A DNA stretch of 53,805 nt. Source: Clostridia bacterium. Its GTDB lineage: Bacteria; Bacillota; Clostridia; Oscillospirales; CAG-272. The notes below the pieces were generated by a model. The model was not told where the DNA came from and searched no databases. It worked only from the letters and a program-made list of their open reading frames with translations. A program made the translations under genes and the position numbers. Positions 34,734 through 43,436 of the stretch are shown in pieces. Location: contig JAGALS010000010.1 in the NCBI GenBank assembly GCA_017625065.1, positions 1 to 53,805 on the forward strand. Reading direction: 5' to 3'. Within the stretch, counting starts at the first letter, position 1. Every line of letters begins with the position of its first letter.

Positions 34734-34758
34734 ACAAATTTTGCTAGGAGGACCCAAA

Positions 34759-37700
34759 ATGAAGAAACTCAAATTTGCTTTGCTGATCGGTATGATCCTG
34801 CTTGCACTCTTCGCGCTTATGGCTTGTAACGAGGAATGCACACACGCAAGCTGTACCGTAACAAGCGCAGGAAACGGTCAGCACACCGTCGCGTGCGATA
34901 CCTGCGACTATGAAACAACAGAAAGCTGCACCGGCGGCAAGGCGACCTGCCAGTCGGGTGCTATTTGCGAGAAGTGTGACACCGCATACGGCGAAGCCGA
35001 TGCAAATGCTCACACCTTTGTGAACGGTGCTTGCACCGTTGAAGGGTGCGACGTGACCTGCACCCATACTTGGGTCAACGGTGCCTGCACCGTTGAGGGC
35101 TGCGACGCGACCTGCGACCACGCGGGCAAACTCAGCACGACCAGCATCGGCAATGGACAGCACAAGATCGAATGTAGCGTGTGCGACTATGCCCTCACCG
35201 AGGGCTGCACCGGCGGTGCGGCAACCTGCAAAAAAGGCCCGATCTGCACAGAATGTCATACCGAATACGGTGCAGCCGATCCCGATGCGCATGATTGGAA
35301 CGCCACAACGGGCGAATGCGATACCGAGGGTTGTATCGTCATCTGCCAGCACATCGGTCAAACCACTGTGACAAACGTCAGCAAGGGACAGCATAAGATC
35401 ACCTGCTCTGTCTGCGGACACGAAAAAATACAAGGCTGCACGGGTGGTACGGCGAACTGCCAAAGCGGCCCGATCTGTGAAAACTGCCACACCGAATACA
35501 GCACGCCCGACGCGAATGCACACATCTGGGATGCCACAACGGGCATATGTGGCGTAACCGGTTGTAACACGCCTTGCAACCACAATTACACCGTCAGCGA
35601 CAACAACGTTGACGATAACCTGCACACAAAAACTTGCAACATCTGTCAGCACACGACCACCGAAAGCTGCTCGGGGGGCTCTGCCACCTGTGAAGCGCGC
35701 GCGATCTGCGAAAAATGCGGTGCCGCGCACGGTGAGCTTTTGCCGACAGACACGAAATATAAATACGTTGTGGTCATCGGCGTGGACGGCGGCGGAACCT
35801 TCTTTAACCAAACATCAACACCCAATATCGACAAGATCTTCGCAAACGGCGCTGTTTCTTACGACACGCTCACCTCCAACCCATCGATCAGTGCGCAAAG
35901 CTGGGGTTCGCTGTTCCACGGCGTGACACCCGAATTCCACGGTCTGAACAACACCAATACCGGCAACACTCCGTATCCTGTCGACTCTCCCTACCCCAGC
36001 TTCTTCCGCGTGATTAGAGAAAACGATCAAAATGCGGTGCTGGCTTCCTTCAGCCATTGGAAGAATATTAATGTCGGCATCATTGAGGACGGTCTTGGCG
36101 TATACAAGTACGGTGGCGTAGCCGATGAAGAGCTGACCAATCAGATCCTTCTCTACCTTGACACCACAAGCCCCACGACTATGTTCGTACAGTTTGACGA
36201 GGTAGACGGCGCGGGACACGGAAACGGATACGGCTCTGCCAAGCATCTTGAAACGATCACCAGAATTGACGGCTATATCGGTCAAATTTACGATGCATAT
36301 GTCAACAAAGGCATCATTGATGAAACCTTGTTCATCGTGACTGCCGACCACGGCGGGACTCCCGGAGGAAGCCACGGCGGTTGGACCGATGCTGAAAAGC
36401 ACATTATGTTCGCGGCAGCGGGCAGAACAGTCAAGAAGGGCGGCACCATCCAGGATGCCCAGATCCGCGATACCGCCGCTATCGTACTACACGCCCTTGG
36501 ATACGAAGATCAGCAGCCCAAGACCTGGACGGCATACGTTCCCGGCGACCTGTTCGTCGGTGTTAATGCCACCGATCGTCCTATTCATTTCACACCTGTT
36601 GACCCCGACTCCGATCGCTATCACGAAACCGTGCCCACCCCCTCGACAGATAGCGGCAAGCACGTGACCGATTTTGTGGATAACAATCTTTCGGTTTACC
36701 TGCCCTTTGACGGAAACGCCAACGATCAGTGCGGTAATACGACAACAACCACGACCGGCAAACTATATTTCATCGAAAACGGTTATTACGGCAACGCTGT
36801 TCGGCTGGATGAGGGTTACGTCACCTTGCAAGATTATGTTTTGAAGAAACAGAGCTTCACGGTCTCTATGTGGATCCATTCACAGGTCCAGGGCGGCGAC
36901 CCCGTTCTCTTCTCCAATGCGGATTGGAAAGACGGCTATCAACCCGGATTGACTGTGGCAATGAACGTGGGCAAAAATATCATTCGAACGAATATCGGTA
37001 CTACCGATAACAGACATCGTATTGATGCAACTTTGCCTTCGGATTATCGAACAGGTTGGATGCATTTGACCGTTTCGTTCGACCGCGAAAACAATCAGAT
37101 CATTTACTACATTGACTTTGGAGCACCTCTTGTCAAATCGTACAATATAGCCGAAATGAGCTTTGAGGGCATCTTGAACGGTCTTAACATCGGTCAGGAT
37201 GGCAACGGTACTTACGCCTCCAGTTTGACTGCCGCGATGGATGAGTTTATGATTTTTGAAGGCGCATTCACGACTGAAGATAACATCAATCTTGCCAAAT
37301 ATTACAAAAACAAGCTGAATGGTTCAGACTTCCCCGTCGGAACACAGCCGACCGCAACGCCCGAAGCAGGCAGCGACGGTTATATCACGAACGTTGTTGA
37401 CAAAGAATTGTCGGCGTATCTGACCTTTGACGAAACCGTTGCTGATGCAACAAGCCAGCAGACCACGACCGCAAACGGCACGATCACCTATGAGGATGCT
37501 GTGTTCGGCAAGGGTGCCGTGCTGGATGAAGGATACGTCACGATCAATAATTACACCATGGGTAAGGACAGCTTTACCTTGTCCTTCTTCATCAAGCTGA
37601 ACGACTTTGCGGGCGACCCCGCTATTGTGGGCAATGAGAATTGGGCTAGCGGTAAAACTCCCGGCTTTTTGTTATACTTCGAGGGGAATTTCATTGGATT

Positions 37701-38037
37701 TAACGCGGCTGACGGCAGCAACCGTATGGAAAAGCGAACCACACTGCCTTATGATTATCAATCCGCTTGGACGCACGTTTTGCTTTCTGTTGACCGTCAA
37801 ACAAACGTTGTAAAGATCTCGTATAACTTTGAGGAATTTGTCGTTTACGATATTCCCGCAGAACTTCAAGACGATGCTTTTGACAACCCCTCATATTCTC
37901 TCAACATTGGTTGTGATGGATCGACCACTTACAATCCCAAGCTGAAAGCAACCATGGATGAATTTATGATATTTGACGGTGTCTTTACCGATGGAGATCT
38001 TGCGGCTCTTGCAAACTATTACGGCGTCACCGCGTAA
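34759..38037 (+). CDS. Surface lipoprotein: Cys-rich repeats, phosphodiesterase (alkaline-phosphatase superfamily) domain, two LamG domains
   Basis: 1092 residues. Lipobox LMAC with Cys23. Residues ~25-330 hold about four Cys-rich repeats built on GQH...C-x2-C...C-x-GG-x-A-x-C...IC-x2-C, which likely bind metal. Residues ~333-600 are a type I phosphodiesterase/nucleotide-pyrophosphatase domain: Asp343 in GVDGGG, the nucleophile region SAQSWGS, FDEVDGAGHG, and Asp530-His531 in TADHGG match the two-metal site. Two LamG/concanavalin-like domains follow (~641-855 and ~881-1092). It is an exported hydrolase of phosphodiester, phospholipid or sulfate type that would attach to glycans. The ATG at 34759 has AGGAGG 7 bases upstream, better than the TTG at 34741. 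Confidence 0.85.
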   Translation: MKKLKFALLIGMILLALFALMACNEECTHASCTVTSAGNGQHTVACDTCDYETTESCTGGKATCQSGAICEKCDTAYGEADANAHTFVNGACTVEGCDVTCTHTWVNGACTVEGCDATCDHAGKLSTTSIGNGQHKIECSVCDYALTEGCTGGAATCKKGPICTECHTEYGAADPDAHDWNATTGECDTEGCIVICQHIGQTTVTNVSKGQHKITCSVCGHEKIQGCTGGTANCQSGPICENCHTEYSTPDANAHIWDATTGICGVTGCNTPCNHNYTVSDNNVDDNLHTKTCNICQHTTTESCSGGSATCEARAICEKCGAAHGELLPTDTKYKYVVVIGVDGGGTFFNQTSTPNIDKIFANGAVSYDTLTSNPSISAQSWGSLFHGVTPEFHGLNNTNTGNTPYPVDSPYPSFFRVIRENDQNAVLASFSHWKNINVGIIEDGLGVYKYGGVADEELTNQILLYLDTTSPTTMFVQFDEVDGAGHGNGYGSAKHLETITRIDGYIGQIYDAYVNKGIIDETLFIVTADHGGTPGGSHGGWTDAEKHIMFAAAGRTVKKGGTIQDAQIRDTAAIVLHALGYEDQQPKTWTAYVPGDLFVGVNATDRPIHFTPVDPDSDRYHETVPTPSTDSGKHVTDFVDNNLSVYLPFDGNANDQCGNTTTTTTGKLYFIENGYYGNAVRLDEGYVTLQDYVLKKQSFTVSMWIHSQVQGGDPVLFSNADWKDGYQPGLTVAMNVGKNIIRTNIGTTDNRHRIDATLPSDYRTGWMHLTVSFDRENNQIIYYIDFGAPLVKSYNIAEMSFEGILNGLNIGQDGNGTYASSLTAAMDEFMIFEGAFTTEDNINLAKYYKNKLNGSDFPVGTQPTATPEAGSDGYITNVVDKELSAYLTFDETVADATSQQTTTANGTITYEDAVFGKGAVLDEGYVTINNYTMGKDSFTLSFFIKLNDFAGDPAIVGNENWASGKTPGFLLYFEGNFIGFNAADGSNRMEKRTTLPYDYQSAWTHVLLSVDRQTNVVKISYNFEEFVVYDIPAELQDDAFDNPSYSLNIGCDGSTTYNPKLKATMDEFMIFDGVFTDGDLAALANYYGVTA

Positions 38038-40626: not shown

Positions 40627-42567
40627 TTACCAAATCACAATATTGTTTTGTTCACCGTAGTGCCAATAGTTCCCTGTCTGTGCGGGCGGGTTTGCGGAGT
40701 AGTAATAGCGGGTAGCCTTTTCTAAACCGCTATTACGCCAGGAAGAATCGATAGACATCAGACTCCAATCATGGGCACTACCACCGTAATAAACAGTGGT
40801 TAATCCATCGCAACCATAAAACGCCGAGTAGATTTTCGTTACAACCTTAGGGATTGTGATCGACGTCAATCCACTGCAATACCAGAACGCATAATCCCCG
40901 ATTGTTGTCACGCTACCATCTGTGGGGATCACACTGTTTTTACAGCCAAGCACAAGTATTTTGCTCGCGGTTCTTATCAAACAATTTCCTGCGCTGTGAT
41001 AAACAGTATTACCGCCTTCAACGGTAATGCTTTCCAAACCGCTACAACCTAAGAACGCTACTTTGCTAATGTTCGTTACGCTCGACGGGATCTTGATCGA
41101 CGTCAGCCCGCTGCAACCGCTGAACGCATTACTACCAATGCCCATCACGCCACCGTCTGTTGGAATCACACTGCTTTTACAGCCAAGCACAAGTGTTTTG
41201 CTTGCGGTTTCTATCAAACAATTTCCTGCGCTGTGATAAACAGTATTACCGCTTTCAACGGTGATACTTCCCACTCCGCTACAATAGGAGAACGCATCAT
41301 CACCTATGCTCGTCACACTTGATGGGATCTTAATCGACGTCAATCCGCCACAATTATAGAACGCAACCTCACCAATACTCGTCACGTTCGACGGAATTTC
41401 CAGTGAAGTGATTTTATTTCTATTTAGATACAAATCCTCGGCATAATATAATGGGTTTGCCCAATAAGAAGCAGACACAGAAGAAAGAAAGTTGATTTTG
41501 CACCAAGCTACAAGATCAGTAATATAAACTGCCGTCAATCCACTGCATTCATAAAACGCCATAGCGCCGATGCTCGTCACGCTTGCCGGAATCATAACGG
41601 ATGCGAGGCTACTACATTCATAAAACGCCTCATCGCCGATGCTCGTCACGCTTTCCGGAATCACAACGGATGCGAGGCTACTACATTCATAAAACACCCT
41701 TTCGCCTATGCGCGTCATACCATTAGGAATCGTGATAGATGTCAAACTCTTACATTTGTAGAACGCATAATCTCCGATATAAGTCAACTTTTTAGGCATA
41801 ACGATTGTTTCTAAGGAATTGCAGTTGTAAAAGGCATTACTACCTAAATTCTCAATTCCCTCACACAGAATCAAGGTGCGGATCATGGTCATATCCTTAA
41901 AAGCATCTTTTCCTATCGCTTTCACGGGAAAAGAATTTAGATAACAGGGTACGATTACAACCGTAGCAGTTTCGTCACTAAAACCTGTAATCGTAGCCTC
42001 TCCGCAATTGACTGTGTAAGTGAACTGATTGGAATCAATCTCCACCCTTTTTGCGTAAATTGAACCGCCTTGCGGAAAACTTGTATCCGCTGTTAAAGGT
42101 GTTTGAAAATCATCATCCACAAACCAACCGTAAAAATAATTCTTCGAATTTATATATTGTGGCTTTTCCGGAGCAGTAATTTTATACCCCTCCTCTTTAT
42201 TGATGGTCAGCGTTTCAGAGAGCAAACCATCTATATAAACACTAACAGTAGCAATATTTGCTGTTTCAGAGTTTTCATCGTTAGAGTTTATGCCATCAAT
42301 TCCATCGCTATAGTTCTCCTCGCACTTGTCGCAAAGTGAGTTGTCGTCTGCGTCGCGGTGCTGGCAGACGGGCGAAGCAGACACGTCAACACCATCGGTG
42401 TAGCTTTCGCTACATTTATCGCACTTGCCATCATCGTCCGCGTCGCGGTGCTGACATACGGTAAGGGCTTCGCTACTCGGTGTGTCGCTCTCGTCGCAAG
42501 CAACAAGCGCAAGCAGACACAAAAGGCAAAGGAATACCGAAAGCAACACAAAAACTCTTTTTTTCAT
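40627..42567 (-). CDS. BspA-type leucine-rich-repeat lipoprotein
   Basis: 646 residues. Lipobox LVAC with Cys24. Two short repeats, CQHRDADD-x2-(K/L)CDKC, near 39-60 and 68-90 look like metal-binding Cys/Asp loops. A small beta domain (about 115-185) is followed by a run of about 15 LRR_5 repeats, FYECSSLASVVIPESVTSIGDEA style, up to ~620. BspA-type proteins are surface adhesins that bind host matrix or other bacteria. AGGAGG precedes the ATG. The gene has a long structured leader with a terminator (see 42582-42760). DNA repeats inside the gene show recent internal duplication. Confidence 0.88.
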   Translation of the reverse strand: MKKRVFVLLSVFLCLLCLLALVACDESDTPSSEALTVCQHRDADDDGKCDKCSESYTDGVDVSASPVCQHRDADDNSLCDKCEENYSDGIDGINSNDENSETANIATVSVYIDGLLSETLTINKEEGYKITAPEKPQYINSKNYFYGWFVDDDFQTPLTADTSFPQGGSIYAKRVEIDSNQFTYTVNCGEATITGFSDETATVVIVPCYLNSFPVKAIGKDAFKDMTMIRTLILCEGIENLGSNAFYNCNSLETIVMPKKLTYIGDYAFYKCKSLTSITIPNGMTRIGERVFYECSSLASVVIPESVTSIGDEAFYECSSLASVMIPASVTSIGAMAFYECSGLTAVYITDLVAWCKINFLSSVSASYWANPLYYAEDLYLNRNKITSLEIPSNVTSIGEVAFYNCGGLTSIKIPSSVTSIGDDAFSYCSGVGSITVESGNTVYHSAGNCLIETASKTLVLGCKSSVIPTDGGVMGIGSNAFSGCSGLTSIKIPSSVTNISKVAFLGCSGLESITVEGGNTVYHSAGNCLIRTASKILVLGCKNSVIPTDGSVTTIGDYAFWYCSGLTSITIPKVVTKIYSAFYGCDGLTTVYYGGSAHDWSLMSIDSSWRNSGLEKATRYYYSANPPAQTGNYWHYGEQNNIVIW

Positions 42568-42592
42568 TTTCTTTTCCTCCTAAAATAAAAAA

Positions 42593-42618
42593 GTGCGTGA
42601 CCAATAAAAGCCACGCAC
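42593..42618 (-). terminator. Leader terminator before the LRR lipoprotein gene
   Basis: On the minus strand GTGCGTG (42618-42612) pairs with CACGCAC (42599-42593), then TTTTTTATTTTA runs straight into the AGGAGG ribosome site. A terminator in this place implies attenuation. Confidence 0.7.
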
Positions 42619-42642
42619 CGAAAAATGCACAGCTCCGATTGC

Positions 42643-42755
42643 TGCCACACAACTTTTCGACACTTACAATAAAGCATGCGAAAATAGAGCATGCATTTTT
42701 ACCATAGTAAAAACACATACTTTATTGCAAAATGTCGATATTTAGTTGTGTGGCA
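42643..42755 (-). ncRNA. Structured leader RNA (candidate riboswitch or attenuator) upstream of the LRR lipoprotein
   Basis: Read on the minus strand: P1 TGCCACACAAC/GTTGTGTGGCA (outer arms 42745-42755 and 42643-42653), P2 TCGACA/TGTCGA, P3 CAATAAAG/CTTTATTG; inside P3 are hairpins TTTTTAC-TATG-GTAAAAA and GCATGC-N9-GCATGC, so the fold is a three-way junction. The promoter at 42761-42789 would start the RNA right at P1. I recognise no known riboswitch class; a MITE is the alternative, but no target-site duplication is visible. Confidence 0.6.
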
Positions 42756-42760
42756 AAGTT

Positions 42761-42789
42761 ATTGTATCACAAAATTTGCCATTTGTAAA
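42761..42789 (-). promoter_or_regulatory. Promoter for the LRR lipoprotein leader
   Basis: TTTACA (42784-42789), 17 bases, TACAAT (42761-42766) on the minus strand; the predicted first base (about 42754) coincides with the P1 helix of the leader RNA. Confidence 0.7.
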
Positions 42790-42898: not shown

Positions 42899-42972
42899 TT
42901 TGACTTTGTTTGACTTTGACTTTGTTTGACTTTCGCGTTATAATGAAATCACAAAGGTCAAAGAAGGTCAAA
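42899..42972 (+). promoter_or_regulatory. Three CtsR operator boxes
   Basis: Two head-to-tail inverse-orientation boxes, TTTGACT-TTG-TTTGACT at 42899-42915 and 42915-42931, and one direct box, GGTCAAA-GAA-GGTCAAA at 42956-42972. All match the known CtsR heptad repeat. The second box contains the -35 of the promoter and the third covers the region just before the ribosome site. Confidence 0.95.
42916..42944 (+). promoter_or_regulatory. Sigma-A promoter of the ctsR operon
   Basis: TTGACT (42916-42921), 17 bases, TATAAT (42939-42944), embedded in and flanked by CtsR boxes. Confidence 0.9.
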
Positions 42973-42983
42973 AGGAGGGCTAA

Positions 42984-43436
42984 ATGATGCTTACCGACCA
43001 AATTGCAAAAATGATCGAAGCTATGCTGGAGGAAGGTGGCGGCGCGCTGGAGCTGCAGCGCAACGAGATGGCAACGCGCCTTGGATGCGTGCCCAGCCAA
43101 ATCAGCTACGTCATCACTTCCCGCTTTACCCCCGAACGGGGCTATATCATCGAATCACGCCGCGGCGGCGGCGGATGCATCCGCATCGTGCGAAAGCAGA
43201 TGCACCGCGACGAATATCTGATGCACTTTTTCTATGCCGTGGGCGAGCAGATCGAGGAAAATGAAGCAAAAGCATACCTGCGCAATCTGCTTGACCAAGA
43301 GATCATCACAAAACGGGAAGCAACCATCATCAGCAACGCGATCTCCACCGCGGCGCTGCAAAACGTGACACCCGAGGGCAGAAATACTGTGCGCGCACAG
43401 ATATTCCGACACATTCTTCTGTCCTTGATGCAATAA
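42984..43436 (+). CDS. ctsR: Transcriptional repressor CtsR
   Basis: 150-residue CtsR, the class III heat-shock repressor. The N-terminal winged helix-turn-helix (about 1-75) contains EMATRLGCVPSQISYVITSRF and the glycine-rich wing RRGGGGCIRI; the C-terminal dimer domain (about 80-150) contains the helices bound by McsB. AAAGGAGGGC precedes the ATG at 42984; a second ATG follows directly. It would repress its own operon at the boxes upstream and be inactivated on heat or when arginine-phosphorylated proteins are degraded through ClpC. Confidence 0.96.
   Translation: MMLTDQIAKMIEAMLEEGGGALELQRNEMATRLGCVPSQISYVITSRFTPERGYIIESRRGGGGCIRIVRKQMHRDEYLMHFFYAVGEQIEENEAKAYLRNLLDQEIITKREATIISNAISTAALQNVTPEGRNTVRAQIFRHILLSLMQ

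Follow-up and report, generated by a model that had tools for sequence, protein, structure and literature searches.

Terminator/antiterminator riboswitches, such as those of the purine and SAM-I types, lie in the 5′ leader of a gene, let the 3′ strand of helix P1 join an antiterminator, and occur in several copies per genome. The RNA of type III toxin-antitoxin systems (ToxI) is arranged as a promoter, a pseudoknotted RNA, a terminator and a downstream gene. Attenuators have also been collected by the analysis of premature terminators (Naville and Gautheret 2010, PMC2965389), and the main text of that study ties some of the resulting families to genes that are paralogous or mobile.

The RNA described here stands before a BspA-type leucine-rich repeat (LRR) gene in a 53,805-nucleotide stretch of a Clostridia bacterium genome (contig JAGALS010000010.1, hereafter the window). 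Like riboswitches of the purine and SAM-I types, it is a 5′ leader with several copies per genome and a terminator 5′ of the Shine-Dalgarno sequence, and the 3′ strand of its P1 may join an antiterminator. Unlike in these riboswitches, its anti-antiterminator would be a long-range helix from an apical loop and not P1 alone, its genes do not belong to a single metabolic pathway, no ligand is assigned to it, and no Rfam family matches it at the curated threshold. It resembles the attenuators of PMC2965389, as far as the main text of that paper describes them, in being a leader with a terminator and an alternative antiterminator. It also has the promoter, pseudoknotted RNA, terminator and 3′ gene of ToxI, from which it differs in that its downstream genes are diverse and often secreted. 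We consider it, with a probability of roughly 80%, a cis-acting transcription attenuator in which an apical strand would take the 5′ arm of the antiterminator and so free the terminator. The parts of the window copy, from the promoter to the gene, are the following.

42761..42789, minus strand: sigma-A type promoter TTTACA-17-TACAAT with a TG before the -10 element (direct reading and mechanical scan)
42744..42754, minus strand: P1, 5′ strand, GCCACACAACT; the transcript probably starts about here
42739..42743, minus strand: J1/2 motif AAATA, the constant motif of the rod that adjoins P1 (family count)
42714..42738, minus strand: P2 and P3, 5′ strands (minimum free energy, MFE, fold; P3 also by covariation)
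42707..42713, minus strand: 5′ arm of the local apical hairpin, TTTTTAC (shuffle counts and swap test)
42687..42700, minus strand: apical switching strand AAAAATGCATGCTC, predicted to pair with the local 5′ arm or the box
42657..42680, minus strand: P3 and P2, 3′ strands (MFE fold; covariation for P3)
42644..42654, minus strand: P1, 3′ strand, AGTTGTGTGGC, whose end bases may also join the antiterminator (covariation, swap test)
42632..42641, minus strand: linker CAATCGGAGC, also written CAAUCGGAG, the putative outer part of the antiterminator 5′ arm (swap test)
42621..42636, minus strand: box GGAGCTGTGCATTTTT, the inner segment of the putative antiterminator 5′ arm, with which the apical strand would also pair (covariation, swap tests, energies)
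42587..42619, minus strand: intrinsic terminator and U run, with the left arm and loop as the predicted 3′ side of the antiterminator (scan, covariation, energies)
40627..42567, minus strand: open reading frame (ORF) of a BspA-type LRR lipoprotein, the presumed regulated gene (ORF list, Pfam)

Direct reading places TTTACA at 42789-42784 and, after a 17-nt spacer, TACAAT at 42766-42761; the terminator arms GGTGCGTGGC...GGTCACGCAC at 42619-42593, followed by the T run; the Shine-Dalgarno sequence AGGAGG at 42581-42576; and the ATG at 42567. These elements, together with the 11-bp P1 and the hairpin TTTTTAC-TATG-GTAAAAA, had all been named in a preliminary description of this DNA and are present as it claimed, and a mechanical scan of the window also recovers the promoter and the terminator. 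The letters of a second hairpin it had proposed, GCATGC-N9-GCATGC, are likewise present, although its standing as a separate element is doubtful, its 3′ half lying inside the covarying P3. The predicted fold of the 175-nt leader has an energy of -69.5 kcal/mol; 200 dinucleotide shuffles gave -38.0 (sd 3.6), and none of them was as good (z -8.9). The gene encodes 646 amino acids with a lipoprotein-like start and an LRR_5 match in Pfam (E 6e-79). Its divergent neighbour is ctsR (42984-43436, plus strand), and the intergenic region common to both genes holds GTCAAA direct repeats upstream of ctsR (42900-42980), which we take to resemble CtsR operator sites. Elsewhere in the window, a 1098-aa ORF (34741-38037, plus strand) contains a type I phosphodiesterase domain and stretches of a concanavalin-A-like lectin domain; a receptor-binding lectin-like domain is matched weakly (26.9 bits against a cut-off of 23.8).

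Searched against the 4227 families of Rfam 15 at the curated threshold, the window gave two tRNAs, neither over the element, and 20 loci gave only one 5S rRNA and one tRNA, again with none over the element. At relaxed thresholds, the leader had ten matches up to E 10, all sub-threshold, and 11 loci had one match up to E 0.5, outside the element. No T-box family appeared in the window, the leader (E up to 10), the 20 loci or the 11 loci (E up to 0.5), and ToxI gave a single match in the leader, on the other strand and at 15.4 bits against a cut-off of 50. The assignment to no known class thus stands for the stretches tested against Rfam 15. A literature text search did not return the box string. 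None of the terms looked for occurs in PMC8040213; the passages covered of PMC2965389 do not describe the element, and “leucine-rich”, “ruminococc” and “lipoprotein” are absent from its main text. The family is apparently undescribed in Rfam 15 and in the portions of the literature covered, which include PMC11109978, PMC8632094, PMC2864571 and PMC2965389; motif lists in supplements (e.g. that of 2017, with 224 motifs) lie outside this scope.

The window RNA is a member of a large family with many copies across Clostridia genomes. With the leader as query, similar DNA was found at several places in its own genome. Seven copies there, the window's included, have in common the promoter spacing, P1, the loop GGTAAAA and the box GGAG-N-GCR/GTTTT(T)CGGTGC, as well as the terminator wherever the contig is not cut. 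A gene follows five of the seven; L006 is cut by a contig end, and after L007 no gene is called in the 150 nt before the contig end. A covariance model built on the short class described below (R1) gave eight matches in this genome, and one copy found by the model alone (C1:27281-27419) lies directly 5′ of a second LRR lipoprotein-like gene.

A pattern made from the box occurred in 22 of 98 genomes (relatives plus the own genome), one match among the 22, L038, not being an element, and the reversed pattern in none of the 98. Scanning genome contigs with it returned at least 118 stretches. Among the 80 matches listed, 69 carry the name of Clostridia or of one of its families, with ruminant guts as the source of many, and the other 11 are from other taxa; a test for P1, blind to taxon, rejected all 11. 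Parsing of 156 pattern matches gave 121 elements and 35 rejects, about 13 of which look real by eye but truncated or misparsed, the others being chance matches. L149 was dropped afterwards, which left 120 elements, 63 short and 57 long, divided at a length that we set at 140 nt from P1 start to P1 end. The short class spans 95-137 nt and the long class 142-178 nt, typically with an extra side hairpin.

Covariance-model matches, with the own genome counted, were found in 80 of the 247 genomes sampled from the order (E 1e-3) and 66 of the 293 from the class (E 1e-4), and in the own genome alone among 299 of the phylum at a stricter cut-off (E 1e-6), so that the three samples were read at unequal thresholds. 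Copy numbers per genome in these large samples are floors because 9 to 11 candidates were scored per genome. Fuller counts in seven genomes, picked for their many copies, were 28, 27, 20, 17, 14, 14 and 12.

Some copies are adjacent: in seven head-to-tail pairs and one array of four, the copies are separated by about 50 or 110 nt, too little to hold a gene. In the tandem pairs at L220, L224, L227, L229, L263, L269 and L273, the spacing is about 50 nt, which leaves room just for a second promoter. The array of four, at L183 (566-1533, then 1553-1927), precedes a PIN7-domain protein (Pfam E 2.6e-24), and every copy in it is equipped with a terminator and a promoter-like sequence.

In its typical form the element runs from a promoter through a folded rod to a terminator, mostly followed by a Shine-Dalgarno sequence and a start codon. 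Of 120 members, 114 have a promoter (8 or more of 12 matches) no farther than 25 nt from P1, as against 62 of 600 random places. We aligned 51 of 62 short and 44 of 54 long listed elements, chosen by us for length and non-identity; two clear cases of linker-terminator pairing, L162 and L035, were left out of alignment A2. The preliminary description had called for covariation in P1 to P3, and in the short class this is seen for P1 (97.8% of cells paired, 7 of 12 pairs changed on both sides) and P3 (82.1%, 7 of 8 pairs); P2 is placed by the MFE fold of the window leader. The terminator helix, which stands between promoter and start codon, is paired in 99.1% of cells with changes on both sides in 5 of 9 pairs.

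Taken together, P1, the apical-box pairing and the terminator are paired in 98.4% of cells in the 51 short elements, with 109 double-change cells against 23 in shuffled alignments, and in 94.7% in the 44 long elements, with 100 against 28 (0/500 shuffles as good in both). P1, P3, the local hairpin and the terminator of the short class, of which P3 and the local hairpin were named by us first and then counted, reach 94.1%, with 166 double-change cells against 46.5 (0/500). Such shuffle-based scores are inflated by relatedness, for which thinning is a partial remedy. RNAalifold, applied to the short alignment, returned P1 and the terminator only. Outside the helices, NATA occupies the J1/2 place in 113 of 120 elements, and ATA occurs in 607 of 2400 random stretches inside elements. 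The rod and its AAUA motif are conserved, though the switching strands hold much of the conservation.

These compensatory changes bear on a mobile, MITE-like hairpin repeat that would carry a promoter and a terminator by chance. Its tandem duplication and its 12 to 28 copies per genome in the seven copy-rich picks would suit such a repeat. We nevertheless hold it to be very improbable, given the compensatory helix changes, the usual place before a start codon and the pattern matches on viral contigs: these six reduce to four distinct ones, all variants of a single other sequence that lacks P1.

The consensus of the apical strand is AAAARYGCNNNCUC, that of the local arm UUUUUAY (short class, window copy included) and that of the box GGAGNNNGCRUUUUU, and the linker CAAUYGGAG is complementary to the loop and right arm of the terminator. 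We exchanged segments between elements and asked how often the permuted partners paired as well as the true ones. Among 99 distinct elements of 114, of which L060 and L117 had a wrong place taken as apical strand, no permutation of 2000 was as good for apical strand and box (z -8.5) or for linker and terminator (z -7.9), and both pairings gave z -7.1 and 0/2000 after thinning to 54 dissimilar elements. The local arm and the apical strand did likewise in 53 short elements (z -8.5, 0/2000). Five of six controls with reversed or unrelated segments fell between z -1.2 and 0.9; the sixth, the P1 5′ strand with the rest of the terminator, departed from the null with a weak signal (z -2.8, 12/2000). 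The tail of the P1 3′ strand showed a weak contribution to pairing with the terminator (z -3.2, 2/2000). The preliminary description had instead put the switch between the P1 5′ strand and the left arm of the terminator as mutually exclusive folds; this pairing was rejected, as 181 of 2000 swaps were as good (z -1.3).

In column counts for the local apical hairpin of the short class, 12 double-change cells were found against 2.3 in shuffles (0/500), and three of five measures stood at 0/500; the remaining two were null (double-change pairs 251/500, pair types 463/500). At one loop position and its box partner, the 51 short elements have U-A 19 times, C-G 17 times and U-G 15 times, and C-A never. 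Since both the local hairpin and the apical-box pairing are supported, the apical strand of the short class would have two mutually exclusive partners. Covariation in the antiterminator columns is weak, both in a first count (90.1% paired, a value reached by 6/500 shuffles; 35 to 210 of 500 on the other measures) and in a second (95.2%, 65/500; 18 to 108 on the other measures). Changes in the linker are often matched by changes in the terminator, as in L019, L113, L123, L125 and L162. When 99 linkers were ranked against each of 27 atypical terminators, the own linker came in the top 3 for 12 terminators and in the top 10 for 18, but below 20th place for 7. An antiterminator that would be mutually exclusive with the terminator is supported by the swap test, the column counts being weak. 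As far as sequence comparison goes, the rod (P1, P3), the local apical hairpin, the apical-box pairing and the antiterminator are thus all supported as predicted structures.

Predicted energies depend on how the 3′ part is constrained. With 9 nt blocked at the 3′ end, the 3′ parts of 114 elements gave a median of -20.35 kcal/mol for the antiterminator and -16.7 for the terminator; at least 10 cross pairs formed in 112 of 114, and none of 20 shuffles was as good in 80 of 114. A harsher block of 17 nt, which also covers part of the antiterminator, put the antiterminator 7.6 kcal/mol above the terminator; because the two blocks give opposite orders, the sign of the difference depends on the constraint. 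In the window leader, forcing an antiterminator that spans linker and box on one side and the left arm and loop of the terminator on the other costs 4.2 kcal/mol relative to the MFE fold. All these energies leave out the pseudoknot and kinetics.

On the 5′ side of the antiterminator the box would be the inner segment, so its capture by the apical strand would permit termination, and a free box would permit read-through. RNA polymerase would start at or beside P1, as the promoter suggests, and the rod of P1, P2 and P3 would fold. The apical strand would then meet the local arm, in the short class, or the later-made box. If it takes the box in a long-range, pseudoknot-like helix, the antiterminator would lack its 5′ arm, the terminator would form and the gene would be off. 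If the box stays free, linker and box would pair with the left arm and loop of the terminator, perhaps joined by the end of the P1 3′ strand, and the gene would be read through. Comparison of the sequences demonstrates the promoter, P1, P3, the local hairpin, the apical-box and linker-terminator pairings, the terminator and the linkage to genes; the order of events and the default state are inferred. A terminator with an antiterminator alone would also fit ribosome-mediated attenuation through a leader peptide, for which nothing specific was found; as rods differ in both length and sequence and the alignments, judged by eye, show no evident reading frame common to them, we regard it as extremely improbable.

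Of 108 elements, 77 have a gene start in the 100 nt that follow the terminator, at a median gap of 22 nt, and 31 have no gene by our rule; the corresponding counts are 14 of 95 for the divergent side and 72 of 535 for random places. This placement weighs against the reading of the element as a self-contained, trans-acting small RNA, with the downstream gene incidental or reached by leaky read-through. A promoter and a terminator do enclose the element, the seven tandem pairs and the array of four leave no gene space between copies, and L007 has no gene called up to its contig end. Besides the gene linkage, a linker that fits its own terminator would be left without a reason in a pure small RNA, and we find this reading unlikely. 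The copies are neither free repeats without gene linkage nor devoid of covariation, though some are tandem and some lack a gene. A new cis-regulatory RNA before a BspA-type gene, a candidate attenuator or riboswitch, is what the preliminary description had proposed; with no Rfam match over the element at the curated threshold in the window or the 20 loci, strong covariation and gene linkage, it was right in kind, and the linker-box/terminator and apical/box pairings are absent from it.

The downstream genes are enriched for secreted proteins. By simple rules of our own, signal-peptide-like N-termini occur in 41 of the 73 proteins encoded downstream, compared with 71 of 399 in the background (p 5e-11), and lipoboxes in 18 of 73 against 16 of 399. 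The commonest Pfam family is LRR_5, the BspA-type LRR, in 12 of 91 genes, followed by the Listeria-Bacteroides repeat in 6, while zinc ribbons, AMP-binding, SLH, CHAP, collagen and others were each counted 2 or 3 times. A second set, which draws on four copy-rich genomes plus a single additional locus, has LRR_5 in 19 of 53 and an AbrB/MazE fold in 7 of 53. These are raw tallies, over 91 of 93 and 53 of 54 gene calls after exclusion of doubtful ones. They agree with the anticipated place before LRR or other surface genes. Eight such genomes hold 12 to 108 LRR_5 domain matches, and since such genomes are rich in LRR_5 anyway, part of the link between element and LRR may reflect background.

The range of genes is wider than adhesins and includes AbrB-type regulators, small Cys-rich proteins, zinc ribbons and acyl-CoA ligases. 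One small Cys-rich protein (...VCLGNGEQGFECCCDECDYYLLCFPEFD... and variants) recurs after the long-class elements L004, L005, L020, L026, L032, L070, L086, L089, L148 and L167, and NCBIfam returned no match for the two members tried, L005 and L089. After L225, L230, L234, L243, L252 and L257, from two genomes of one genus, stand AbrB/MazE-fold proteins that carry CxxC pairs at the C-terminus and are a possible feedback regulator.

The signal, whether a ligand, a protein or an ion, would act on the rod, perhaps at the AAUA beside P1, and the regulated output would be mainly surface and secreted proteins. A protein in place of a small molecule, for example a regulator of the AbrB fold or of another kind or a NusG-type antiterminator, may operate the attenuator, though this is on the doubtful side. 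The AbrB/MazE fold in 7 of 53 downstream genes in the second set would agree with it, a long rod suits a protein, and outside the switching strands no compact, strongly conserved pocket is seen, AAUA apart; against it, none of the regulator families among the downstream genes tallied is conspicuous. A tentative reading, to which we give a little less than even odds, is a new and abundant orphan riboswitch class of animal-gut Clostridia. A small molecule or ion would bind at the P1/AAUA junction, the apical loop would supply the anti-antiterminator, and the surface and secreted proteins so switched, up to dozens of them and BspA-type LRR proteins in particular, would form one regulon.

If this is true, many uncultured Clostridia would set parts of their surface by one class of RNA switch. 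With as many as 28 copies in one genome, going by the seven for which full counts were made, the use would be regulon-sized, and the element would offer a direct handle on the timing of LRR surface protein display.
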